The translations under genes and the position numbers were made by a program. From positions 1 to 40,758 of the forward strand of contig JAGUXT010000010.1 in NCBI GenBank assembly GCA_020061705.1: a stretch of 40,758 nucleotides of DNA. Direction: 5' to 3'. The notes below the pieces were generated by a model. The model worked only from the letters and a program-made list of their open reading frames with translations, did not search any database and had not been told where the DNA came from. Origin of the DNA: Halothiobacillus sp. (GTDB taxonomy: Bacteria; Pseudomonadota; Gammaproteobacteria; Halothiobacillales; Halothiobacillaceae). The stretch's first letter is position 1. The number at the start of each line of letters is the position of its first letter. Below, piece after piece: positions 12,175 to 31,020 of this stretch.

Positions 12175-13029
12175 ATGAACCCTACTTATTCGCTCCCCAC
12201 TTCCCCTGTCAGCCCCGCTGTCCGGCTGTTTATGCGGGCCGCAGCCGTATTTGTTGCCAGCGCTGGGGTGTCCCTTTTTTTCCTGAGTGAAGCAACTCAT
12301 ATTTACTTTGCCTGGACGATCAAGCCCCCTGTCACGGCCGCTTTCCTTGGCGGCGGATATTTGGCCGTCACCACTGCGTTGGTACTTGCGCTAAGGCAGA
12401 CAGACTGGACGCAGGTGCGCGTGGGTGTTGCAGTCGTAGCGACGGGGCTCCTTTCCATTCTCGCGGCGACGCTATTGCATATCGACAAATTTCATTTGCA
12501 CAACGCGGCCTGGAGCGCTGAGTTTTGGGCGTGGAGTTGGTTGATTCTTTATATCATCCTCGTGCCCGGGCTGATTATTGCGCTTTGGACACAACAAAAA
12601 CAGACAACTTCCATAGCACCACCGCAAGCGACGCTTCCAGCGTGGATGCGTATCGGCCTGCGGCTACTGGGTGTGCTGATGCTGGCGATGGGCGCGTTGA
12701 TGTTTGTAATGCCGGAAACCACTGAGCTTGTTTGGCCCTGGCCATTGACCCCGTTGACGGCGCGCATGATTGGGAGTTTTTATCTTGCCTTCGGAGTAAG
12801 CCTGCTGGCAGCGGCGAGAGAAAACGACTATGCACGCATCCACGTCGCAAGTTTTGCTTATCTGGCGTTTGTTATGCTTCAGACCATTAACGTTGTGCGC
12901 TATCAAGCGGTGAACTGGTTTGAACTACCCGGGCAGTTGCTTGCAGGAGTGTTGGTTGCGCTGCTCATTCTTGGTGCAACTGGGGTTTATGGTTACTTAA
13001 CCAGCCGTTCCGGTACGTCCAGCGCATAA
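12175..13029 (+). CDS. Integral membrane protein with internal duplication, unrecognised
   Basis: A 284-residue protein with about eight hydrophobic segments and no soluble domain. The halves resemble each other. SEATHIYFAWTIKPPVTAAF, then GGGYLA, in the first half lines up with PETTELVWPWPLTPLTARMI, then GSFYLA, in the second. Each is followed by a Leu/Ala helix and a short charged turn (RQTDWTQVRVGV versus RENDYARIHVAS). This points to duplication of a four-helix unit. A Gln/Thr/Pro linker (QQKQTTSIAPPQATLP) joins the halves. I do not recognise a family and infer no function. Only a weak GAG precedes ATG 12175. The 177-bp gap before it holds the near-repeat AGCTTGGAC twice and nothing else I can name. 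Confidence 0.75.
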   Translation: MNPTYSLPTSPVSPAVRLFMRAAAVFVASAGVSLFFLSEATHIYFAWTIKPPVTAAFLGGGYLAVTTALVLALRQTDWTQVRVGVAVVATGLLSILAATLLHIDKFHLHNAAWSAEFWAWSWLILYIILVPGLIIALWTQQKQTTSIAPPQATLPAWMRIGLRLLGVLMLAMGALMFVMPETTELVWPWPLTPLTARMIGSFYLAFGVSLLAAARENDYARIHVASFAYLAFVMLQTINVVRYQAVNWFELPGQLLAGVLVALLILGATGVYGYLTSRSGTSSA

Positions 13030-17250: not shown

Positions 17251-18399
17251 TTAACTACGCAAATCATCCACGAACTTTTTCACGCGATCCAGCCATGAAT
17301 GTTCCTGTGGGCGGTGGTGATTGCCGCTCAGGGATTCTTCAAAGCGGCGTAGTAATTCCTTTTGCTCTTCGCTTAGTTTGACCGGGGTTTCGATGGTGAC
17401 CTTGCAAATCAAGTCGCCGGTGGCGCCACCACGCACGGGTGCCACGCCCTTGCCACGCAGGCGGAACAACTTGCCGCTTTGGGTTTCGTGCGGGATCTTC
17501 AGGCGCACGCTACCGCTCAGCGTTGGTACATCAACCTCACCGCCAAGTGCTGCAGTGGTGAAGCTTACCGGTACTTCGCAATACAGGTCGGCATCCTGAC
17601 GGGTAAAAATCGGATGCGCCTTGACATGTACCACGACGAACAAATCACCATGTGGTCCACCAAGCCCGCCGGGCTCGCCTTCACCGGAAAGACGAATGCG
17701 ATCCCCGGTATCCACACCCGCCGGGATTTTGACCGAGAGCGACTTTTGCGTTTTCACGCGGCCTTGACCGTGACAGACCGGGCAGGGGTCTTCGATGATT
17801 TCGCCGCGCCCCTGACAGGTGGGGCAGGTTTGTTGTACCGCAAAGATGCCTTGCTGAATGCGTACTGCACCCGCACCACCGCAGGTGGGGCAGGTTTTGG
17901 GTTTGCTGCCTCTTTTCGCACCCGTGCCATCGCACGCGGTACAGGGGTCGCTGGAGGGGATTTTGATGGTGACGGTGGTGCCGGACACCGCTTCTTCCAG
18001 GCTGATTTCGAGGTTGTATTGCAAGTCCGAGCCGCGATAGGCACGTGAACCGCCACGTCCACCCGCTTGGCCGCGAGCACCACCAAAAATATCGCCGAAC
18101 ACATCGCCAAAAATATCGGAGAATCCCGCGCCGCCATAACCACCCGCTGCGCCCGCACCGCCACCCATGCCTCCTTCAAACGCGGCATGGCCGAACTGGT
18201 CGTAGGCGGCGCGCTTTTGCGCGTCGGTCAAAATTTCATAGGCTTCCTTGGCTTCCTTGAATTTGGCCTCGGCATCCTTGTCGTCCGGGTTACGGTCAGG
18301 ATGGTATTTCATCGCCAAGCGGCGATAGGCTTTTTTCAGCTCGTCTTCACTGGCGTTTTTGCTTACACCAAGGATTTCGTAAAGGTCTTTCTTTGCCAT
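17251..18399 (-). CDS. dnaJ: Chaperone DnaJ (Hsp40)
   Basis: A 382-residue class A J-protein that brings unfolded clients to DnaK and stimulates its ATPase. The J-domain covers about 1-70 with HPD at 33-35 ([10 protein letters not shown]). A Gly/Phe-rich linker follows ([15 protein letters not shown]). The zinc domain has four repeats, [24 protein letters not shown] and CPVCHGQG. The C-terminal substrate domains end [13 protein letters not shown]. The frame extends 12 codons upstream, but ATG 18399 gives the standard start [11 protein letters not shown]; only a weak ribosome site precedes it. It lies 95 bp after dnaK with a palindromic repeat between, probably in the same transcription unit. 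Confidence 0.97.
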
Positions 18400-18494: not shown

Positions 18495-20411
18495 TTACTT
18501 GTCTTTCACTTCTTCAAACTCGGCATCGACCACATCGTCGTCGCCTTTGTTTGCGCCTGCACCAGCCTGCGCACCGCCCTCGCTCTGTGCCGCTTGAGCG
18601 TAGGCTTTTTGCGCGATTTCGCCAGAGATTTTCGCCAGGGCTTCGGTTTTGGCTTCAATCGCGTCCTTGTCGTCACCCTTGATGGCTTCCTTCAGGTCGG
18701 CAATCGCTGCTTCGGCGGCCTGCTTCTCGTTGACATCCACCTTGCCGTCCAGATCCTTGAGTGACTTTTCAGTGGCGTGAATCATGCCGTCGGCCTGATT
18801 GCGCGCATCAATCAGCAGACGCATTTTGTGGTCTTCTTCCTTGTGCGCCTCGGCATCGTCCACCATGCGCTGGATTTCGGCTTCGCTCAGGCCGCTGGAG
18901 GCGGTGATGCGAATGGATTGTTCCTTGTTGGTAGCCTTGTCCTTGGCGGACACATGCAGAATACCGTTGGCATCGATGTCAAAGGACACTTCGATTTGCG
19001 GCATGCCGCGTGGAGCGGGCGGGATGTCATTCAGGTCAAAGCGCCCGAGCGACTTGTTGCCGCTGGCCATTTCGCGCTCGCCTTGCAGCACATGCACGGT
19101 GACGGCGGTCTGGTTGTCGTCGGCGGTGGAGAAAGTCTGGCTGGCCTTGGTCGGAATGGTGGTGTTCTTTTCGATCAGCTTGGTCATCACGCCGCCCATG
19201 GTTTCGATGCCCAGGGAGAGCGGGGTCACGTCGAGCAACAGCACATCCTTGCGCTCGCCACTCAGTACCGCGCCTTGAATCGCCGCGCCTACGGCCACGG
19301 CTTCGTCCGGGTTCACGTCCTTGCGTGGCTCTTTGCCGAAGAAGGCTTTCACCGCCTCGCGTACTTTGGGCATACGGGTTTGACCACCCACCAGGATCAC
19401 TTCGTCGATTTGCGCGGTGGTCACACCCGCATCCTTCAACGCAATGCGGCACGGCTCAATGGTGCGGGTAATGAAATCATCCACCAGAGCTTCAAGCTTG
19501 GCACGGGTGATCTTGATGTTCATGTGCTTCGGGCCTGTGGCATCGGCAGTCACATACGGCAGATTCACATCAGTCTGCTCGGTGGATGACAGCTCGATTT
19601 TGGCCTTTTCGGCGGCTTCTTTCACGCGCTGCATGGCGAGCGGATCCTTGCGCAAATCCACGCCTTGTTCGCTTTTGAACTCATCCACGAGGAAGTCGAT
19701 CAAGCGATTGTCGAAGTCTTCGCCGCCGAGGAAGGTGTCACCGTTGGTGGACAGCACTTCAAACTGCTTTTCACCGTCGATGTCGGCGATTTCGATGATG
19801 GAGACGTCAAACGTACCACCGCCCAAATCGTACACGGCGATTTTCATATCCTTGGACTGAACTTTGTCCAGGCCATACGCCAAGGCCGCTGCGGTGGGTT
19901 CGTTAATGATGCGCTTGACATCCAGGCCGGCAATGCGACCGGCATCCTTGGTGGCCTGACGCTGGCTGTCGTTGAAGTAAGCGGGCACAGTGATGACCGC
20001 TTCGGTGATTTCTTCGCCCAGATAGGCTTCGACATCCTTTTTGATTTTCATCAGCACACGCGCAGACACTTCCGGCGGTGCCATCTTCTTGCCCACGGCT
20101 TCCACCCAGGCATCGCCGTTGTCGGCCTTGAGAATGGTGAACGGCATCAACTTGATGTCTTTTTGTACGGCATCTTCCTGGAAGCGGCGGCCGATCAGGC
20201 GCTTGACCGCGTACAGGGTATTGGTTGGGTTGGTGACTGCCTGGCGCTTGGCAGGTTGACCCACGATGACCTCGCCGTCCTTGGTAAACGCCACTACAGA
20301 CGGCGTAGTGCGTGCGCCTTCGCTGTTTTCGATGACCTTGGGCTGGCCGCCTTCAAGAATAGCGACGCAGGAGTTGGTGGTGCCGAGGTCAATACCGATA
20401 ATTTTAGCCAT
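18495..20411 (-). CDS. dnaK: Chaperone DnaK (Hsp70)
   Basis: A 638-residue ATP-dependent chaperone. The nucleotide-binding domain shows [14 protein letters not shown] at the start, [12 protein letters not shown] and [16 protein letters not shown]. The linker [15 protein letters not shown] leads into the substrate-binding domain with [20 protein letters not shown] Gln/Ala/Gly-rich lid ends in [15 protein letters not shown], the usual EEVKDK-type tail. Length equals the E. coli protein. GGAG lies 9 nt before ATG 20411; the frame runs 13 codons further up without support. The 257-bp gap from grpE is unusually long and structured. Confidence 0.98.
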
Positions 20412-20500
20412 GGGAAATGCTCCGAAATGAGTTGAGTGTGTTTGTTGCAACTAATGTTGTTGGCAAATGCGCCCATTTCAAGGCGCACGGAATGGTATTT

Positions 20501-20663
20501 ATGAAAGCTCTGAATTTAATCAGAGCTTTCATTCCGGGGCATGGATGCCCCGTCGCATCAATGACATTAGTCATCGAAATGCAGTCATCGAAATGCGCGA
20601 GATAGTCCGGGCGTGTACCGGGCTGATCGAGTCTGAATGAATCCATGGAAGGATTCATTCAGA
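20501..20663. promoter_or_regulatory. Structured grpE-dnaK intergenic region
   Basis: Three inverted repeats lie within about 160 bp. 20501-20513 / 20520-20532 have 13-bp arms (ATGAAAGCTCTGA) and a 6-nt loop. 20535-20542 / 20545-20552 have 8-bp arms (CGGGGCAT) and a 2-nt centre. 20632-20644 / 20651-20663 have 13-bp arms (TCTGAATGAATCC) and a 6-nt loop. A 14-bp word (AGTCATCGAAATGC) is repeated in tandem at 20569-20596. On the minus strand CTTGAAA (20476-20482) resembles a sigma-32 -35 element, though a good -10 is not obvious. The region may carry a second dnaK promoter, an attenuator or a structured leader. Confidence 0.6.
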
Positions 20664-20668
20664 ATTTT

Positions 20669-21256
20669 TTATTGTGAAACAATCACCAGTGCCGGGCGCA
20701 AAATGCGCTCGTTGAGTTGGTAGCCCTTTTGTAGCACTTGCAGCACGGTGTTGGCTTCGCCTTCGCCTGGAACCATGGAGATCGCCTGGTGCAGGTCGGG
20801 GTTGAATGTCTGCCCCTGCGGGTCGATGGCTTTCACGCCAAAGCGCTCAAGGGTTTGGAAAAATTGGTTGTACATGATCTCGGTGCCTTTTTGCAGCGGC
20901 TCGACTTCGCTGGCATCCATGCAGGCTTTGAGGCCAAGGTCAAGGCTGTCGGCCACGCCGAGAAGGGAGTCTACAAAGCGTTCGAGTGCGTATTTGCGTG
21001 CATTGTCGATATCACGCTCCGTGCGCTTGCGCAGGTTGTCCATTTCGGCGCGCAGGCGCAGCACTTCGTCCCAGTGCTCGTCAGCCTTGCTGCGGGCATC
21101 TTCGAGCAACATATGAACCGTTGGCTCGGCATCGCTAGCTGCTGCGGTGTCTGGTGCGGTCGTCGTGTTGGCGGTTGTTTCTGTCGTACTTGTCTGGCTG
21201 CCTTGATCCATCGCGTCGTTGTCGGGAGTGGTCGCTGTGTTGTTTTGGGTCATCAT
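20669..21256 (-). CDS. grpE: Nucleotide exchange factor GrpE
   Basis: A 195-residue co-chaperone that releases ADP from DnaK. The first ~60 residues are a disordered Thr/Asp/Ala-rich stretch. A long helix follows (LLEDARSKADEHWDEVLRLR, AEMDNLRKRTERDIDNARKY), then the beta domain with GVKAIDPQGQTFNPDLHQAI. YQLNERILRPALVIVSQ near the end is the GrpE signature. GGAG (21261-21264) is 4 nt from ATG 21256 and 7 nt from the next codon, ATG 21253; either may be used. It lies between hrcA and dnaK, 58 bp after hrcA. Confidence 0.97.
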   Translation of the reverse strand: MMTQNNTATTPDNDAMDQGSQTSTTETTANTTTAPDTAAASDAEPTVHMLLEDARSKADEHWDEVLRLRAEMDNLRKRTERDIDNARKYALERFVDSLLGVADSLDLGLKACMDASEVEPLQKGTEIMYNQFFQTLERFGVKAIDPQGQTFNPDLHQAISMVPGEGEANTVLQVLQKGYQLNERILRPALVIVSQ

Positions 21257-21314
21257 GCTTCTCCAAAAGTGTATGGCCGGGATGTGTGGCGGAATGCGCT
21301 GTAAAAATTCGGTT

Positions 21315-22394
21315 TTAAACTGCGGGCGGGTTGGATGGATTCAAGGCCATGCCTAGCAGGCGTGCTGTGATGTCCACGCGTGGGATGATCTGGTCGTAGG
21401 GCATGCGCGTTGGGCCGATGATGCCCAGATAGCCAATGATGCGCCCCTCTTCCTGCCCGCCTTCACGGTATGGAGTGGTTATGAGGCTGCATTCCTGCAG
21501 CGGCGCATAGCCGGATTCACTGCCAATAAAGATTTGCACACCGTCAGCACGTTGACTGTGCTCGAAAAAATGCAGAAGTTCACGTTTGCTTTCAAAAGCG
21601 GCAAACAGGCTTTTCATGCGGCTGCGGTTGCTGATTTCGTCCAGTGCAATGAGGTTTGACTGTCCGCTGATCACCAGGTCTGGTGCGGGAGGGGTGTTGC
21701 TCAAGGTTTGCTCTGTCAGGCGGATGGCATCGTGCATCAGGCTGTTGAGGTCACTGCGCAGGCTATCCATTTCACATAGCAAATGTTCACGTATACGGCC
21801 TGGATCGTGACCAACCAGGCGTTCGGTCAATTGGGCGGCAAGTTGATGCAATTCTTGTGCGCTGTACTGGCGAGTGACAGGCAGAATGCGGTTTTGTACT
21901 TCGCCATCGCTCATCACCAAAATGGCCAGCACCTGTTGGGCGGAGAGAGGGATAAACTCAATTTGCAGCAGGCGGGCTTGTTCACGCTTGGGCAAGGTGA
22001 CCAGGCCGGTGAAGCCAGTGAGTTGCGAAAGCATTTGCGAGGCCGTGGCAACGAGGTTTTGGCGCGAGCCTTGCGATTGGTGTAATTCGTTGTGCAGGCG
22101 CTGCAGCTCGGTAGCCTCAATGGGGCGCATGGTCAAAAGCTGGTTGATGAACAGGCGATAGCCCTGGATCGTTGGTACACGCCCGGCGGAGGTGTGCGGT
22201 GCGTGAATCAGCCCCAAATCTTCGAGATCAGCCATGACATTGCGCACACTGGCGGCACTTAGGCTTAGTGCTGAGCTATGAGCCAGACTTTCGGCAAGGG
22301 TGCGTGAGCCGATCGGCACGCCTTCGTCGATGTAACGCTCGACCAGAGCCTTTAGCAGGTGTTGCGAACGTTCGTTAAGGATAGGCAGGCTCAT
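21315..22394 (-). CDS. hrcA: Heat-inducible transcription repressor HrcA
   Basis: A 359-residue repressor that binds CIRCE inverted repeats with help from GroEL. The N-terminal winged helix (LNERSQHLLKALVERYIDEG, VPIGSRTLAE, LSAASVRNVMADLEDLGLIH, SAGRVPTIQGYRLFINQLL) is complete. The GAF-like core ends with VQIFIGSES, EGRIIGYLGIIGPTRMPYDQ and the C-terminal VDITARLLGMALN. Its ATG overlaps the glgA stop by 4 bp (ATGA at 22391-22394), so it appears to be translated by coupling from the glycogen synthase message. I saw no CIRCE element (TTAGCACTC-N9-GAGTGCTAA) near hrcA, grpE or dnaK by eye, so its target may be elsewhere, such as groESL. Confidence 0.96.
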   Translation of the reverse strand: MSLPILNERSQHLLKALVERYIDEGVPIGSRTLAESLAHSSALSLSAASVRNVMADLEDLGLIHAPHTSAGRVPTIQGYRLFINQLLTMRPIEATELQRLHNELHQSQGSRQNLVATASQMLSQLTGFTGLVTLPKREQARLLQIEFIPLSAQQVLAILVMSDGEVQNRILPVTRQYSAQELHQLAAQLTERLVGHDPGRIREHLLCEMDSLRSDLNSLMHDAIRLTEQTLSNTPPAPDLVISGQSNLIALDEISNRSRMKSLFAAFESKRELLHFFEHSQRADGVQIFIGSESGYAPLQECSLITTPYREGGQEEGRIIGYLGIIGPTRMPYDQIIPRVDITARLLGMALNPSNPPAV

Positions 22395-23938
22395 GCTTTG
22401 CTGGCGGCGTGTGATCGGGTTGGTTTAGAAGATGGGAGTTTGACTTCCGGGATGGGTGCGATTGGGGTCGTGGTCGCAGCACTTGAGTCAGAAGGCTTTT
22501 GGGTAAGTTCTTGATAAAGTTCAAGATAGCGTTGTGCGCTGGCAGTCCAGCCAAAGTCTTGCGCCATACCGTGGGTTTGCAGGATTGCCCACACTTTCGG
22601 TTGCTGGAAAAACTCCAGGGCACGACTCACGCCCCAAAGAATGGCGGGAACGTCGAGGTTGCGCATCACAAAGCCGTTGGCGCTGCCATTGGCCAGCGTG
22701 GCTTCGTAAGTGTCAATCACGGTGTCGTTCAGTCCGCCGACCCCATGCACTATCGGCGGCGTGCCATAGCGCAGGCTGTAAAGCTGGTTCAGTCCACATG
22801 GTTCGAAACGCGATGGCATAAGAAATACATCACTGCCAGCTTCGATGCGGTGTGCAAGACCCTCGTTGTAGCCCAGGCGCACGCTGACACGACCGGGATG
22901 GCGTAGCATCAGCGCCTGGAACGCGGCTTCCAGTGTGGCATCGCCGCCGCCTAGCATGGCGAGTTGTACCGGGCGCTGCATGATTTGCTCGGCAGCGGCC
23001 AGTACCACGTCCAAACCTTTTTGCTCGGTCATGCGACCCACCATGCCGATGAGCATGGCTTCGGCATCCATGTCCAGACCCATTTCGCGCTGCAAGGCCA
23101 CTTTATTGAGCGCCTTGTTTTCCAGGCTGTTGAGCGTATAGGCGGCGGCAAGATGAGCATCTGCTGCTGGATTCCACTCGTCCATGTCGATGCCGTTAAT
23201 CATGCCGAGCACATCGGCTTGGCGCTGGCGCAACATGCCGTCCAGCCCCTGCCCAAAGGCGGGGGTTTGAATTTCACGCGCATAGCTTGGGCTGACGGTG
23301 GCAATTTTGCGCGCGGCATTCAGGCCGGCCTTGAGGCAATTCATTTCGCCCCAGTGTTCGAGAGCATCCGGTCGCCATAGACGTGCAGGCAGGCCAAGTT
23401 GCTCAAAGGTGGCGCGATCAAACACACCTTGATAGGCCAGGTTGTGGATGGTGATGAGGCTGGGCGGCGCCTGCGGATTATCGCGCAACAGCGAAAGCAG
23501 AATGCCGGTCTGCCAGTCGTTGCCATGCACGATGTCAGGCTGCCAATCGAGCATGGCCTGATCGAGCGCCAGCATTTCGCAAGCGCGGCTGAACAGGGTG
23601 AAGCGTTCGGCATTATCCGGCCACGCGTGGCCGGTGGTGTCGTTGTAGGGGTTGCCTGTGCGGGTGCTGAAACTTGGGTGTTCAATTAAGAACAGCGGTA
23701 CACGACTGCCTGGCATTTGGCTGCGCAACAGGCGGGCGCTGCCAAAAATCCCGAGGTTGAGTTCGCTCACAACCTGCCATGCCTTGAGGCGGCTGAGGGT
23801 GTCGGCGTACGCCGGCATCACCAGGCGAATGTCCACGCCGAGTTCAAACAAGGCATGCGGCAGGCTGGCAGATACGTCCGCCAGTCCGCCGGTTTTCATC
23901 AGTGGATGGATTTCAGAGGTTGCAAACAGAACGCGCAT
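22391..23938 (-). CDS. glgA: Glycogen synthase (ADP-glucose, GT5)
   Basis: A 515-residue retaining glucosyltransferase that extends alpha-1,4-glucan from ADP-glucose. The N-terminal MRVLFATSEIHPLMKTGGLADVSASLP contains the KTGGLADV ADP-glucose motif. HGNDWQTGILLSLLR, TIHNLAYQGVFD, TVSPSYAREIQTP and IDMDEWNPAADAHL are typical. The catalytic block near the C-terminus is FLMPSRFEPCGLNQLYSLRYGTPP with the Glu pair intact. The last ~35 residues (from TQKPSDSSAATTTPIAPIPE) form a Ser/Pro/Ala-rich tail not needed for the fold. AGGAA lies 7 nt before ATG 23938. It is preceded by glgB on the same strand, with a palindromic repeat in the gap, and overlaps hrcA downstream. Confidence 0.97.
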   Translation of the reverse strand: MRVLFATSEIHPLMKTGGLADVSASLPHALFELGVDIRLVMPAYADTLSRLKAWQVVSELNLGIFGSARLLRSQMPGSRVPLFLIEHPSFSTRTGNPYNDTTGHAWPDNAERFTLFSRACEMLALDQAMLDWQPDIVHGNDWQTGILLSLLRDNPQAPPSLITIHNLAYQGVFDRATFEQLGLPARLWRPDALEHWGEMNCLKAGLNAARKIATVSPSYAREIQTPAFGQGLDGMLRQRQADVLGMINGIDMDEWNPAADAHLAAAYTLNSLENKALNKVALQREMGLDMDAEAMLIGMVGRMTEQKGLDVVLAAAEQIMQRPVQLAMLGGGDATLEAAFQALMLRHPGRVSVRLGYNEGLAHRIEAGSDVFLMPSRFEPCGLNQLYSLRYGTPPIVHGVGGLNDTVIDTYEATLANGSANGFVMRNLDVPAILWGVSRALEFFQQPKVWAILQTHGMAQDFGWTASAQRYLELYQELTQKPSDSSAATTTPIAPIPEVKLPSSKPTRSHAASKA

Positions 23939-23971
23939 GGGGAGTTTCCTGGGAGGCGTGAATTTACTTTT

Positions 23972-24044
23972 GCCACGGAGGACACAGAGGACAAAGAGTT
24001 AGAAAGTCCATCACAAAAACGTCTCCATGCTCTCTGTGGCTAAA
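23972..24044. repeat. GCCACAG palindromic repeat, copy 3 (glgB-glgA gap)
   Basis: GCCACGGAGGACACAGAGG (23972-23990) faces CTCTGTGGCTAAA (24032-24044). The left side holds repeats of GGACACAGAGGACA. Outer arms pair with one mismatch. It lies between glgB and glgA. Confidence 0.75.
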
Positions 24045-24060
24045 TCCGCTTTCCGTGTAT

Positions 24061-26232
24061 TTAATCAACACGCTGCAAATACAGTGCTCCAAGTGGTGGC
24101 AGGGTGAGCACAATCGACTGCTCCATGCCCATCCACGGCACATTTTCCGACTGGGCTTCGATCAAGCCGACATTGCTGCCGCCATAGACTTCGGCATCGG
24201 AATTGAGCAGCACGCGGTAGCGTCCTTCTTGCGGCACGCCGAGGCGGTAGCCGTCGCGTACGACTGGGGTGAAATTGAGAGCCACGATAACGCTGTCTTC
24301 GCCGTTTTGACGGATGTAGCTGAGAATCGAGCGGCTGGCGTCGGTGCAGTCCAGCCAGTGGAAACCGTCCCAATCGAAGTCGCGGGCGTGCAGGGCATTT
24401 TCGCCGACATACAGGCTGTTCAAGTCTCCCACGAGACGTAACATCCCGGCGTGCAAGGGGAATTGCGTCACCCACCATTCGAGTTGGCCAGAGAATTTCC
24501 ACTCAGAAACCTGACCGAATTCTCCACCCATGAACAGGAGCTTCTTGCCGGGGTAGCTCCACATCATGGCGTAGAGCAGGCGCAGATTAGCGAAGCGTTG
24601 CCACTCGTCGCCGGGCATTTTGCCGAGCATCGAACCTTTGCCATGCACTACTTCGTCGTGCGAGAACGGCAGGACAAAGTTCTCGGTAAAGGCATAAAGC
24701 AGGCCAAACGTGAGTTGATTGTGCTGATATTGGCGGTGAATCGGTTCATTTTTCATGTAGCTGAGCGTGTCGTGCATCCAGCCCATGTTCCATTTCATGG
24801 TGAAACCCAGACCGCCATGATCGGTCGGGCGGGTCACGCCTGGCCATGCGGTGGATTCTTCGGCAATCACGCTGGCACCGGGGAACTGGTCATGCACCAC
24901 GCAGTTGAGTTCGCGCAGGAAATCAATCGCGCCGATGTTTTCCTTGCCGCCGTATTGATTGGGGAGCCAGTCATGTGGGTCGCGCGAATAATCGAGGTAC
25001 AACATGGAGGCCACGGCATCGACGCGCAGACCGTCGAGGTGGTATTCCTCCAGCCAGTTCACGGCGGATGCGAGCAGGAAATTGCGCACTTCGTTGCGGT
25101 CATAGTTGAAAATCAGTGTGCCCCAGTCGCGGTGCTCGCCTCGGCGCGGATCTTCGTGTTCGTACAGGGCACTGCCATCAAAGCGGGCAATGGCCCAATC
25201 GTCTTTGGGAAAGTGGCCGGGCGCCCAGTCGAGGATGATGCCGAAGTTGTTTTGGTGGCAATAATCAACGAAGTAGCGGAAGTCGTCCGGCGTGCCGTGG
25301 CGGGCGGTGGGTGCAAAATAACCGGTGGTTTGATAGCCCCAGGAATCGTCGAGCGGATGCTCGGTAATGGGCAAAAGTTCGATATGGGTGAAGCCGAGTG
25401 GCTTGAGATAATCCACCAACTGATGTGCGAGTTCGTGGTAATTGAGGAAGCTGTTGCCCTCCTCGCGCCGCCATGAACCAAGGTGCAATTCGTAGATTGA
25501 CATCGGGCGGTTGATCCAGCCTTCGCCACCGCGTTGTTGCATCCACGCGCCGTCGTTCCAGTCGTGGTGTGTGTTGGCGGCAATCATCGCAGCCGTACCG
25601 GGGCGGGATTCAAACTGCGCCGCATAGGGGTCGATTTTGACCAAAATCGCGCCGCTATCGCGGTTGCGGATTTCAAATTTGTACAAATCACCTAGGCACA
25701 GGCCGGGGATGAAAAGCTCCCACACGCCACTTGAGCCGCGCACGCGCATCATGTGGCGGCGGCCATCCCACTGGTTGAAGTTGCCGACTACGCTGACGCG
25801 CTCGGCGCTCGGTGCCCAAACCGCAAAACGCACACCATCAATATCGTCGACGCGTTGCGCATGCGCACCCAACATGCGATAGGCATACCAATGGCTGCCT
25901 TCACCAAACAGGTGCAGGTCAAGTTCACCAAGCAGGGGCTGGAAGGTGTAGGGGTCAATAATGCTGAATTCATGCCCGTCTTCGCCAGTGCAGACCAAGC
26001 TGTAATGCGCCGGGATGGTGTTTGCCTCGGCTTCGATCTGCCAAAGGCCACGAGGGTCAACCTGGGTCAAAGCCATGTTGTTGTGTGCAAAACGCACGGC
26101 GCGCATGGCTGGCAAAAATGCACGAGCCACGACGCGACCACCCTCAACGGGGTGACGACCCAGCAGGCTGAACGGGTCGTGGTGGCAGCCTGCAAACAGG
26201 CGTTCAAGTGACGGATCAATAGCTTGGAGCAT
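24061..26232 (-). CDS. glgB: 1,4-alpha-glucan branching enzyme (GH13)
   Basis: A 723-residue enzyme that cuts an alpha-1,4 chain and rejoins it as an alpha-1,6 branch. Two N-terminal beta domains are present: residues ~10-100 ([20 protein letters not shown]) and a CBM48 at ~115-210 ([20 protein letters not shown]). In the catalytic barrel the nucleophile Asp lies in [19 protein letters not shown], the acid/base Glu in [15 protein letters not shown], and the third acid in [15 protein letters not shown]. The C-terminal beta domain ends [16 protein letters not shown]. Length matches E. coli GlgB (728). AGGAAG lies 7 nt before ATG 26232. It is the first gene of the leftward glg-hsp run and is divergent from glgC across a 255-bp gap that must hold both promoters. 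I could not assign them confidently. Confidence 0.97.
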
Positions 26233-26487
26233 GGCATGTCTTCCTGCTTGTGCGCCGGCGTGCGCGCTGAAAATAATAGAACTTTCGCAAAAACGCCCCA
26301 GCTGCGCTCAAGCACCTCGCCTTGCTGGAACACTTTTGCGTAAGCCCCGAATAATACGAATCACGACTGAATTAGGCCATTCAAATCGGCATTTTACAAA
26401 TACGCTTTTTTGCAGTGGTTTTTTAACACTCTTCGGGCATAGTATAAGCCCAAGAACCGATTCAAACCTGTGTGAGGACACGCCGTC

Positions 26488-27759
26488 ATGAAGATCGAAC
26501 AGCCGCAACGTCTCGTTAGTCGTATTACCCGTGGCACATTGGCATTGGTTCTGGCAGGAGGGCGCGGTTCGCGTCTCAAACAGCTCACTGATTGGCGCGC
26601 CAAGCCCGGCGTGCCGTTTGGTGGCAAATTCCGCATCATCGACTTCCCGCTTTCCAACTGCGTAAACTCCGGCATTCGACGCATCGGCGTGTTGACGCAG
26701 TACAAGGCTCACTCCCTGATTCGCCACATTCAACTCGGCTGGAGCAACTCCAACCCGGCCATGGGTGAGTTCATTGAGCTGTTGCCTGCACAACAGCGGA
26801 TTGACGAAAATTCGTGGTACGCGGGCACGGCGGATGCGGTGTATCAGAATATTGACATCATCCGTTCGCACAATCCCGAATACGTGTTGATTCTGGCTGG
26901 CGACCATATTTACAAAATGGATTATGGCTTGATGCTGGCTTACCACGTTGAAAAACAAGCGGATATGACCATCGGGTGTATTCAGGTACCGGTGGATGAA
27001 GCCAAGGCATTTGGTGTGATGGGGATCGAAGAAAGCGGGCGCATCCTGCGTTTCCGTGAAAAGCCGAATGATCCTGATTCGATTCCCGGATTGCCAGGCA
27101 CGGCGCTGGCTTCGATGGGGATTTATGTGTTCAACACCAAATTCCTTTACGAACAATTGATTCGTGATGCAGATGATCCCAAGTCCTCACACGACTTCGG
27201 CAAGGATATTATTCCCTCAGTGATTGAGAAGTACCGTGTGTTCGCCTACCCATTCAAGGATGTGCAGAGCGGCAAGCAAAGCTATTGGCGCGATGTGGGG
27301 ACGATCGACTCCTACTGGTCATCCAATCTTGAGCTGATTGGTGTCACGCCGGATCTGAATTTGTATGACCGCGAGTGGCCGATCTGGACGCACCAGGAGC
27401 AACTGCCGCCGGCAAAATTTGTATTTGACGATGAAGATCGTCGTGGCATGGCAGTAGATTCAATGGTCTCCGGTGGTTGCATTATTTCCGGTGCCACGGT
27501 GCGCCATTCGTTACTGTTCTCCAACGTGGTGGTGAATGATGGTGCAACGGTGACGGATAGTGTGGTTCTGCCAAACGTGAACATTGGCGAAGGTGCGCGG
27601 GTCCACAAGGCGATCCTGGATAAGGGCTGTGAAATTCCTGCTGGTATGGTGATTGGCGAGGATCTTGCGTTGGATAGCGAGCGGTTTGAAGTCAGCGAAG
27701 GTGGTGTCGTCCTGGTGACACCGGAAATGCTGAATCAACAACTGCACCATGTCCGTTAA
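26488..27759 (+). CDS. glgC: Glucose-1-phosphate adenylyltransferase
   Basis: A 423-residue enzyme making ADP-glucose from ATP and glucose-1-phosphate, the committed and allosterically controlled step of glycogen synthesis. The nucleotide-binding loop [20 protein letters not shown] and [20 protein letters not shown] are exact family signatures. [16 protein letters not shown] and [15 protein letters not shown] are also present. [14 protein letters not shown]-type sequence ([14 protein letters not shown] here) precedes the C-terminal left-handed beta-helix ([20 protein letters not shown] and following). AGGA lies 9 nt before ATG 26488. Its 3' end overlaps the GH57 gene by 11 bp, so the three rightward genes form one operon. 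Confidence 0.97.
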
Positions 27760-29512
27760 GCCAATTGAAGAGGATGAGCCTTTGACCACACCCACAACGC
27801 CTGCTGCGCGCCTGAATGTCGTGCTGATGTGGCATATGCATCAGCCGGAATACCGCGACCCGTTTAGTGGGCAGTTTCAACGTCCTTGGACGTACTTGCA
27901 TGCGATTAAGGATTATGTCGATATGGCCGCGCACATTGAAGCACACCCGCACGCGCGGGCGGTGGTGAATTTTGTGCCGGTGTTGCTGGAGCAAATCGAA
28001 AATTACGCCGAAACCTTGCAGGCGCATTTGCTCAATCGACATGCCCTGTTGCCTGATCCACTGTTGACGGCATTGGCAGCGGATAGTGCTCCACAGGATG
28101 AAGCCGAGCGGATTGAGTTGATTGAATCGTGCTTGCGCGCCAATGAGCAGCGTCTGATTCAACGCTTCCCCGTCTATGCCGACCTTGTCAAGATGGCGCG
28201 CGATTTCATCAAGAACCCATTGCACCTGCGTTATCTCGGTCACGCCTTTTTTACCGACTTGTGCGTCTGGTATCACTTGGCCTGGATGGCTGAAACGGTG
28301 CGTCGTACCGACGCGCGCATTATCGCGCTGATGAACAAGGCTTGTGGTTTTGATGCGCACGACCGCCGGATATTGCTGGAAGTCATAGCCGAGCTTTTAA
28401 CCGGCTTGATTCCACGTTACCGTGCTTTGGCGCTGAGTGGTCAGGTTGAGTTGACCATGACGCCGTATGCACATCCCATCATGCCGCTCTTGCTGGATGT
28501 TTCCTCGGCTCGTGAAGCCTGGCCGGATGTGGTGTTGCCGCAGGAGGGTGCGACGGTCGCCGAGTATCCAGGCGGGAAAGAGCGCGTTCGCTGGCATTTG
28601 ACTGAAGGGCGGCGTGTGTTTGAGCGTGTGTTTGAGGTCAGCCCTGTGGGGTGTTGGCCGTCTGAAGGCAGTTTGAGCGAGGCGACCCTGCCCTTGCTGG
28701 CTGAGGCGGGTTTTACCTGGGCTGCGACAGGTAGCCAAGTGTTGCATAACAGCCTGCATGCCAGCGGAATAGCCGGGAAATACAAGGCGTGTCCACATCG
28801 TTTTTATTCCATGGACGCAAGTCCCTTGCCCAAGCTGGTATTCCGCGATGATGGTTTGTCAGATTTGATTGGCTTCAAGTATTCCACTTGGCATGCAGAT
28901 GATGCGGTGGGTGATCTGATTAACCATTTGGTGCATATCGCCGATGCGTGTCATGACGGGCATCACGTGGCCTCCATCATCATGGACGGTGAGAACGCAT
29001 GGGAATACTACCCGGAGAACGGCTATTACTTCCTTGATGCTTTGTACAAGCGTTTGTCGGTGCACCCGCGCCTGAACCTGACGACTTATCAAGAGCTTCT
29101 CAAGGATGATCCTGTGGTGACGACGCTACCCAAACTGGTGGCAGGCAGCTGGGTGTACGGCACCTTCTCCACCTGGATCGGTGAAAAGGATAAAAACCGC
29201 GCGTGGGACTACCTCATCGCGGCCAAGCGTGTGTGCGACGGTGTTTTGGCCGCCAAGACGCTTAGCCCTGAACAGGAGCAGGCGGTGTTGTTGCAACTGG
29301 CGATTTGCGAGGGTTCGGACTGGTTTTGGTGGTTTGGCGATTACAACTCGGCGGAAGCTGTGCGTGATTTCGAGCGCCTTTTCCGTTTGCAATTGGCGCG
29401 CCTGTATGAGTTATTGGGTGAAGCGCCGCCTGCCGTGTTATCAACAGTTATGGCAGTGGGCGCGGGAGATCCGGCTGCGGGTGGCGTGATGCGCACTGGA
29501 GCGCAAACTTGA
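27749..29512 (+). CDS. Glycoside hydrolase family 57 (alpha-amylase / glucanotransferase-like)
   Basis: A 587-residue GH57 enzyme acting on alpha-glucans. The family motifs appear in order: [10 protein letters not shown] near the N-terminus, [34 protein letters not shown] with the nucleophile Glu, and [20 protein letters not shown] with the acid/base Asp. [20 protein letters not shown] follows. GH57 covers amylase, 4-alpha-glucanotransferase, amylopullulanase and branching activities; sequence by eye does not choose among them. The annotated ATG 27749 overlaps glgC but lacks a ribosome site. TTG 27782, preceded by GAAGAGGA, is a credible alternative and would remove a short acidic leader. It sits between glgC and malQ and is probably a glycogen-remodelling step. 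Confidence 0.9.
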
Positions 29513-31020
29513 GCACGTTAAAATCAACACAAAACGTTCATTTGGAAACTGATCTACCTGAAGTATTGCGTGTACGCCGTGCTGGCGTATTGCTGCACCC
29601 CACCTCCTTGCCGGGCAGCTGTGGTTTGGGTGCAGCGGCCTTCCGCTTTGTTGACCAACTGGCGGCGGGAGGAATTACGGTGTGGCAAATGCTGCCCTTG
29701 GGGTCGACGCATAGCGATGGCTCTCCGTATCAATGCTTGTCATCCCATGCGGGTAGCCCAGGTTTGATTGATCTTGATGCCTTGCGTGCTCAAGGCTGGC
29801 TTGCTGAGCACAGCACGAGCCTGGAAGGTGCATGGCAATGTTTTGTGAGCGCTGCCAACGCAAATGAACTGGCGGATTTTGCGAGTTTTGTGGACGAAGA
29901 ATCCATCTGGCTCGACGATTACGCACTGTTTGTCGCTTTGCGTGAGCAACAGGGTAAACAGGCTTGGTTCGCATGGCCACAAGCCCTGCGCGAGCGAGAG
30001 CCCATGGCCATGCTACAGGCGCGCGAGCAATTGCATGAGCGTCTGCAGCAGATTCGCTTTGAACAATTCGTTTTCTTCCGCCAATGGCAGGCTCTTCGTG
30101 AATACGCTGCGGCGCGTGGTGTGTTGCTCTTTGGTGATATGCCGATTTATGTGGCACACGATAGTGCTGAAGTTTGGGCGCAGCCTGAGCTGTTCAGTGT
30201 CGATGCTCACGGTCAGGCCGAAGCAGTGGCTGGTGTGCCACCGGATTATTTTTCGGCCACCGGACAGCGCTGGGGCAACCCGCTCTACCGTTGGGAACGG
30301 CACGAGGCCGATGATTTCACTTGGTGGAAGGCGCGCTTTGCGACTCACCTCAAGCTGTTCGACCTGGTTCGCATTGACCATTTCCGTGGCTTGGAAGCGT
30401 ATTGGTCGATTCCTGCGGACTGCCCGACGGCCATGGAGGGTGAGTGGGTCAAAGCCCCCGGCGATGCCTTGTTAAACGCGTTGCGCGAGTCTTTCGGCAG
30501 CTTGCCGGTGGTCGCGGAAGACCTCGGTATCATCACCGAGGAAGTGACCGCCTTGCGCCAAAAACACGGTCTGCCTGGGATGCGTATTCTGCAATTTGCC
30601 TTCGATGGCAGCGCCGATAATCCGTATTTGCCGCATAACCATACGCCGGATAGCGTGGTCTATACCGGTACGCATGATAACGACACGACCTTGGGCTGGT
30701 GGCAGGGTTTGGACGATGATGCGCGAGACACGGTGCTCGAATACCTGGATGGTGCAAGCGAGCCCCTGCCTAAGTCAATGCCGTGGCGCTTGATCTGCGT
30801 TGCCCTGGAATCGGTGGCGCAACTTGCCGTGATTCCGTTGCAGGATTTACTCGAACTGGGTAGCGACGCGCGTATGAATACCCCGGGTACCACCGAAGGT
30901 AATTGGACGTGGCGTTATGCAGACGAGCAATGGACGGGCGAGCTTGCCTTGCATTTGCGGCAGGCTGTGATGCGTTATGGGCGCTTGCCGGGTGAGAGCG
31001 TGGTGGTGGGCAACAATTAA
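29509..31020 (+). CDS. malQ: 4-alpha-glucanotransferase (amylomaltase, GH77)
   Basis: A 503-residue GH77 enzyme that transfers alpha-1,4-glucan segments between chains. RRAGVLLHPTSLPGSCGLG and WQMLPLGSTHSDGSPYQCLS are the N-terminal blocks. The nucleophile Asp is in FDLVRIDHFRGLEAYWSIP, the acid/base Glu in VVAEDLGIITEEV, and the third acid in VVYTGTHDNDTTLGWW. It ends with the usual MNTPGTTEGNWTWR block. The start is TTG 29509, sharing TTGA with the GH57 stop, and GGAG lies 7 nt upstream, so translation is coupled. Without glgP or glgX in the window it is unclear whether it serves glycogen breakdown or maltodextrin recycling. Confidence 0.96.
   Translation: MSTLKSTQNVHLETDLPEVLRVRRAGVLLHPTSLPGSCGLGAAAFRFVDQLAAGGITVWQMLPLGSTHSDGSPYQCLSSHAGSPGLIDLDALRAQGWLAEHSTSLEGAWQCFVSAANANELADFASFVDEESIWLDDYALFVALREQQGKQAWFAWPQALREREPMAMLQAREQLHERLQQIRFEQFVFFRQWQALREYAAARGVLLFGDMPIYVAHDSAEVWAQPELFSVDAHGQAEAVAGVPPDYFSATGQRWGNPLYRWERHEADDFTWWKARFATHLKLFDLVRIDHFRGLEAYWSIPADCPTAMEGEWVKAPGDALLNALRESFGSLPVVAEDLGIITEEVTALRQKHGLPGMRILQFAFDGSADNPYLPHNHTPDSVVYTGTHDNDTTLGWWQGLDDDARDTVLEYLDGASEPLPKSMPWRLICVALESVAQLAVIPLQDLLELGSDARMNTPGTTEGNWTWRYADEQWTGELALHLRQAVMRYGRLPGESVVVGNN

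Follow-up and report, generated by a model that had tools for sequence, protein, structure and literature searches.

The class I heat-shock regulon, which comprises hrcA-grpE-dnaK-dnaJ and groESL, is built on the repressor HrcA and its CIRCE operator. Among the regulons listed in Table 8 of PMC545781, groESL is the only constant HrcA target and no hrcA site is given for Desulfovibrio, while for Geobacter sulfurreducens a CIRCE is predicted ahead of rpoH and hrcA also has one. A link between carbon regulation and chaperone genes is described in PMC1676014, where dnaK and groESL of Lactobacillus plantarum come under carbon control by CcpA. As for the spacing of neighbouring genes, PMC10666635 reports 4-nt overlaps as by far the commonest arrangement among conserved co-directed pairs. 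Our own literature search, with many subscription journals outside its reach, found no published glgA-hrcA operon, which does not establish that none is in print.

Here, we analysed a stretch of 40,758 nucleotides (the window) from contig JAGUXT010000010.1 of a Halothiobacillus sp. (GCA_020061705.1, hereafter G000). NCBIfam profile matches against curated cut-offs bore out the leftward run glgB-glgA-hrcA-grpE-dnaK-dnaJ that had been proposed from the letters of the window (Table 1). HrcA is full-length and above the curated cut-off in both TIGR00331 and PF01628 (202.2 bits against 22.2 for the latter), can be aligned over its whole length with 8 relatives apart from a single 4-residue insertion near residue 36, and is encoded by the only hrcA match in the genome. 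There is likewise one full glgA in G000, the second match being a partial glycosyltransferase hit with 29% identity. The other junctions of the run are gaps: 122 bp between glgB and glgA, 58 bp between hrcA and grpE, 257 bp between grpE and dnaK, and 95 bp between dnaK and dnaJ. The next plus-strand gene after glgC encodes a GH57 glycosidase, and the divergent glgC/glgB layout is also found in G001, G002, G003, G005, G006 and G009.

Table 1. Positions of the genes and sites of the glgA-hrcA locus within the window.
Feature	Position	Strand	Basis
dnaJ	17251..18399	-	NF008035, 595.1 bits
dnaK	18495..20411	-	NF001413, 1043.1 bits
sigma-32-like promoter candidate ahead of dnaK	20452..20482	-	11/14 consensus positions
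grpE	20669..21256	-	NF010737, 181.7 bits
hrcA, heat-shock repressor, 359 aa, apparently intact	21315..22394	-	TIGR00331, 299.9 bits (cut-off 197.2)
ATGA, 4-nt overlap of glgA stop and hrcA start	22391..22394	-	sequence; identical junction in G003 and G004
glgA, glycogen synthase, 515 aa	22391..23938	-	NF001899, 586.2 bits (cut-off 459)
GlgA C-terminal tail, residues 479-515, 37 past core	22394..22504	-	
glgB-glgA gap, 122 bp, with dispersed repeat at 23972-23989	23939..24060	-	
glgB, glycogen branching enzyme, first gene of the run	24061..26232	-	NF003811, 990.6 bits
glgC, divergent from glgB	26488..27759	+	NF001947, 684.8 bits

Several other features of the window were observed. On the plus strand, glgC, the GH57 glycosidase gene and a 4-alpha-glucanotransferase gene follow one another in 26488-31020, with ends that overlap according to the starts in the open reading frame list. 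Between the divergent glgB and glgC, the element TGTTAAAAAACCACTGCAAAAAAGC at 26404-26428 (minus strand) was seen by eye to be letter-identical in G000, G003 and G002, and is perhaps a glg operator. A REP-associated tyrosine transposase is predicted at 728-1309 (NF047646, 92.6 bits, cut-off 80), with no Pfam match at 1e-5, and no Rfam family matched the window at gathering scores.

The ATGA overlap noted in the sequence-only reading is confirmed: read on the minus strand, the end of glgA is AAA GCA TGA and hrcA opens with ATG AGC. Since the hrcA start sits inside the glgA stop, hrcA has no leader of its own. A stop-start overlap or a very short gap is the structural criterion of termination-reinitiation, and such an overlap is present at glgA/hrcA in G000 and in two other members of the genus, G003 and G004. 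In G003 all genes from glgB through dnaJ lie within one 38-kb contig with the same ATGA, and in G004 the same overlap is found on a contig that stops 72 codons inside hrcA. A 4-nt overlap is in itself ordinary; what is unusual is the pair of partners, glgA and hrcA. The recurrence of the junction in these two further species puts it beyond chance, and the adjacency is not peculiar to one strain, whereas the original reading had named confinement to a single strain as counting against it. The five genomes of the genus are drafts, which would suit an artefact joining two contigs, but the junction is base-identical in three separate assemblies and the GlgA proteins of G003 and G004 are 82-86% identical to that of the window, so we give such an artefact next to no credence.

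Our surveys also agree with the earlier impression that this neighbourhood is unusual. In a script survey, glgA lay immediately upstream of hrcA at 3 of 111 hrcA loci, namely the window, G003 and G004. These 111 loci, with the window itself included, consist of 30 from relatives, 80 named records and G004 (L104); the set shares genomes with the class survey below and contains apparent near-duplicates (L016/L143 and L015/L149). The relatives numbered 35 genomes with an hrcA match, of which 30 yielded loci, G004 was added, and G019, G039, G047 and G051 stayed outside the script. The class survey sampled 185 genomes, 80 of which had both glgA and hrcA by the chosen cut-offs. None of the 79 besides G000 showed glgA-hrcA adjacency, a count in which 65 genomes carry the two genes on different contigs and could still hold them side by side across a contig edge. 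The closest pair among the 14 genomes with both genes on one contig was about 13 kb apart (G097). Within the genus, all five members searched have hrcA, and the fusion is present in three (G000, G003 and G004) and absent from G001 and G002.

We searched 27 family genomes (17 HrcA-positive and 10 HrcA-negative) for CIRCE operators with a relaxed pattern allowing up to 2 mismatches; a reversed pattern gave 8 hits in 7 of the 27 genomes at 2 mismatches, and hits of the two-mismatch class were not trusted on their own. The HrcA-positive genomes have 1 to 4 CIRCE sites each, while 8 of the 10 HrcA-negative genomes have none and the other 2 have two-mismatch hits only. A CIRCE precedes hrcA in 13 of the 17 HrcA-positive genomes, the exceptions being the three fused genomes and G026 (64% complete), in which the best site before hrcA is degenerate with 5 mismatches. 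The earlier statement that hrcA normally leads its own operon is supported within the family, where the gene usually has its own operator. More widely this is less general: only 50 of the 111 loci have, within 300 nt upstream of hrcA, a site with no more than 4 mismatches. In one genus of the family, all ten genomes (G006, G008, G010, G012, G014, G016, G018, G020, G022 and G024) have no detectable hrcA and no credible CIRCE; this genus looks like one that has lost the entire HrcA system.

The unfused G001 and G002 and the outgroup G005 carry three CIRCE sites each, at hrcA (11-13 nt before the gene), groES and rpoH. By position and tblastn, sites precede these three genes in the five g4 genomes checked as well. 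The fused G000, G003 and G004 carry two each, at groES and at the sigma-32 gene rpoH. In G000 a perfect CIRCE lies just before groES (C42:45407-45433) and another site lies shortly before rpoH (C8:142753-142779; L003 1501-1527). The rpoH site of G003, CTAGCACTC..GAGTGCTAG, is of the two-mismatch class with a full palindrome and was accepted for its place. A CIRCE shortly before rpoH was found in all 11 of the 17 HrcA-positive family genomes whose context was checked by tblastn, and HrcA probably represses rpoH through it. No CIRCE within 3 mismatches occurs anywhere in the window, and the best matches in the 300 nt upstream of hrcA in the fused genomes have 8, 9 and 9 mismatches out of 18. A degenerate CIRCE inside the glgA tail was considered and rejected on these 8-9 mismatches; the best match of the window, with 5, is far away at 12495. 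G000 thus lacks the CIRCE before hrcA by which an autoregulated hrcA-dnaK operon is recognised.

A maximum-likelihood tree of RpoH, GroES and a GroEL fragment (781 columns, ultrafast bootstrap) united G000, G003 and G004 with a support of 100, followed by G002 (99), G001 (99) and G005 (100); within the trio, G000 and G003 grouped with a support of 70. In the drafts of G001, G002 and G005, glgC and the GH57 gene are divergent to glgB-glgA, and CIRCE-hrcA-grpE-dnaK-dnaJ is at a separate locus (the glgA of G001 is split across two contigs). Because the fused trio is one clade with the unfused G002, G001 and G005 outside it, the simplest history is a single glgBA-hrcA fusion in the lineage of the trio once it had separated from G002.

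The fused GlgA proteins are longer at the C-terminus, with 37 (G000), 26 (G003) and 34 (G004) residues past the core compared with 8 in G001, 3 in G002 and 2 in G005; the unfused proteins end in YIELYRRALKD (G002), YLELYRQMLAEQSAKG (G001) and YVALYKRMLG (G005). This tail occupies the spot that in unfused relatives is taken up by the hrcA promoter region with its CIRCE, and an alignment of the fused junction with the hrcA leaders of G001 and G002 gave no convincing homology for it. The tail is poorly conserved (13 of 42 nt identical) except for the last 11 glgA codons, which have 24 of 33 identical nt against a body average of 24.2 of 33. Two further arguments from this region were set aside: fourfold-site conservation in the last codons (4/5, against 93/199 in the body) involves too few sites, and the open frame of the tail is no proof of selection, since a tail free of stops has a chance probability of 0.58-0.79 per pair, and partial openness is also seen in other frames. 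The hrcA gene starts ATGCC in G005. Because it begins ATGAG in the unfused G001 and G002, the TGA that now ends glgA probably already lay in the hrcA start before the fusion.

The glgB-glgA gap also differs, with 122 nt in G000, 164 in G003 and 455 in G004 (100 of them N), compared with 23 in G002 and an overlap in G005; the wider gap may separate a glgA-hrcA unit from glgB. In G000 the repeat CTCTGTGTCCTCCGTGGC within this gap (23972-23989) occurs at 17 places in the genome at up to 2 mismatches, with 0 in a reversed control, and similar repeats were seen by eye in the gaps of G003 and G004.

The main rival to a shared glg message is that the fusion is real but hrcA has gained a new promoter in the 3' part of glgA, with the overlap a by-product of joining and the glycogen genes without influence on HrcA. 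The TGA, which probably predates the fusion, suits this explanation, as any read-through in frame would stop there, and so do the last 11 codons, which are conserved like the body of glgA, unlike the rest of the tail, and could contain a promoter or initiation site. Against it, no sigma-70-like promoter was found in 20350-26600 by a crude scan in which shuffled sequences give 2.6, and which may have missed a promoter inside glgA. The sigma-32-like match inside glgA (10/14) was equalled by 12 of 100 shuffles and is missing in G003, and hrcA has no CIRCE before it. We consider a promoter inside glgA unlikely.

No minus-strand terminator-like site was found in the glgB-glgA gap or at the glgA/hrcA junction. 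Such sites occur on that strand inside glgA (22639-22613) and glgB (26139-26125), with 4 in all compared with 7.2 expected. Further along the run, dnaK may have its own sigma-32-like promoter, the candidate in Table 1. Of 100 shuffles each, 2 matched its score in G000 and 6 did so in G003, where CTTGAAA is at an equal distance. A sigma-32-like site before grpE, 11/14 in G000 and G003, was discarded as it falls within the last hrcA codons. The grpE-dnaK gap (20503-20663) contains two perfect hairpins, at about 20503-20530 and 20632-20663, which were found by eye and are both in G003; the second was also picked up by the terminator scan, and they are a possible processing or termination site.

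We also examined how ribosomes might be recruited to hrcA. Its predicted anti-Shine-Dalgarno (anti-SD) pairing is +1.2 kcal/mol in G000, +1.1 in G003 and +1.9 in G004, weaker in all three than is usual for random 17-mers of the window, a sample of 1000 having a median of -2.7 with quartiles of -5.1 and -1.5; all three values lie beyond the upper quartile. Its G000 neighbours glgB, glgA, grpE, dnaK and dnaJ range from -3.5 to -6.4, leaving hrcA as the sole gene of the run without pairing, although many random 17-mers pair at least as strongly as the neighbours at -4.2 to -5.8. Because hrcA is weak in the unfused G001 and G002 as well (-2.2), its weak SD may predate the fusion. The absence of an SD before hrcA is compatible with coupled translation. 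As reported in PMC6728339, the SD motif is not essential for reinitiation in Haloferax volcanii, where reinitiation nevertheless fell by about 20-80% in 6 of 7 pairs once the motif was removed, and SD use is about equal for overlapping and leading genes in 18 of 24 groups.

Taken together, we put a probability of roughly 0.6 on an ancestral fusion with loss of the CIRCE promoter, after which the glg(B)A message became the source of HrcA, chiefly through reinitiation, with its supply tracking the glycogen genes. A rearrangement in the ancestor of G000, G003 and G004 would have joined the 3' end of glgBA to the first codon of hrcA, removing the CIRCE-controlled, autoregulated hrcA promoter and putting glgBA in its place. 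GlgA would then have gained a short tail of low conservation that terminates at the TGA inside the old ATGAG start of hrcA, giving the ATGA overlap. The likeliest route to HrcA is translation coupled to that of glgA on the glg message, chiefly by ribosomes that would terminate on glgA and start again at the ATG within the overlap. HrcA would still repress groESL and rpoH through CIRCE, and sigma-32 would drive dnaK, but the hrcA gene itself would no longer be repressed and would be out of the feedback loop. Because HrcA would stand outside its own loop and be made from the glg message, the supply of repressor would follow glycogen-gene expression rather than heat. The coupling suggested in the earlier reading, which could tie HrcA level to carbon storage, is plausible. 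We suggest more tentatively that the operon fusion may have placed the heat-shock repressor under carbon-storage control, so that in this clade the expression of the glg genes, acting through HrcA-CIRCE at rpoH and groESL, would determine both the basal level of the heat-shock response and its ceiling.

The same anatomy overlaps with that expected from neutral reshuffling, which differs in function: read-through would supply sufficient hrcA, glgBA expression would hardly vary in a meaningful way, and carbon storage would play no part. The family genus with hrcA in 0 of 10 genomes and no credible CIRCE suggests that HrcA control is dispensable in this family, and hrcA genes without CIRCE occur elsewhere, two Desulfovibrio species having CIRCE only at groESL in Table 8 of PMC545781. 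However, HrcA is intact, with 81-82% identity between G000 and G003, and both remaining CIRCE sites are retained in all three fused genomes. Neutral reshuffling is in our judgement a rather doubtful account of the locus.

What gives the finding weight is that CIRCE has gone from hrcA but is still present at groES and rpoH, and that the genus also includes unfused species. Together these make up a natural experiment in network rewiring, in which one genus holds both closed and cut HrcA loops while the other predicted targets, groESL and rpoH, are unchanged. Comparing fused and unfused species could reveal the purpose that autoregulation serves in a heat-shock repressor, and show whether sharing an operon is enough to link stress control with carbon storage. 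The proposed carbon link is possible, and the sister species that retain CIRCE-hrcA make it testable.

With the class I HrcA/CIRCE regulon this locus shares the same HrcA, the gene order and a perfect groES CIRCE, but here hrcA is without CIRCE and stands behind glgA; a CIRCE-less hrcA is in itself not new. A CIRCE at rpoH is common to G. sulfurreducens and these genomes, whereas the hrcA CIRCE present there is missing in the three species here. The CcpA system of L. plantarum likewise joins carbon regulation to groESL and dnaK expression, if the link proposed here is real, but it does so through a catabolite regulator at cre sites, and here the means would be the operon membership of the repressor gene. 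The 4-nt overlap of co-directed genes is the same as at the termination-reinitiation sites described in PMC6728339 and PMC10666635, where such overlaps are reported to be enriched among subunits of one complex, whereas here they join a metabolic enzyme to an unrelated repressor. The glgA-hrcA junction is no new kind of system but a conserved rewiring of the known HrcA/CIRCE circuit in three species.
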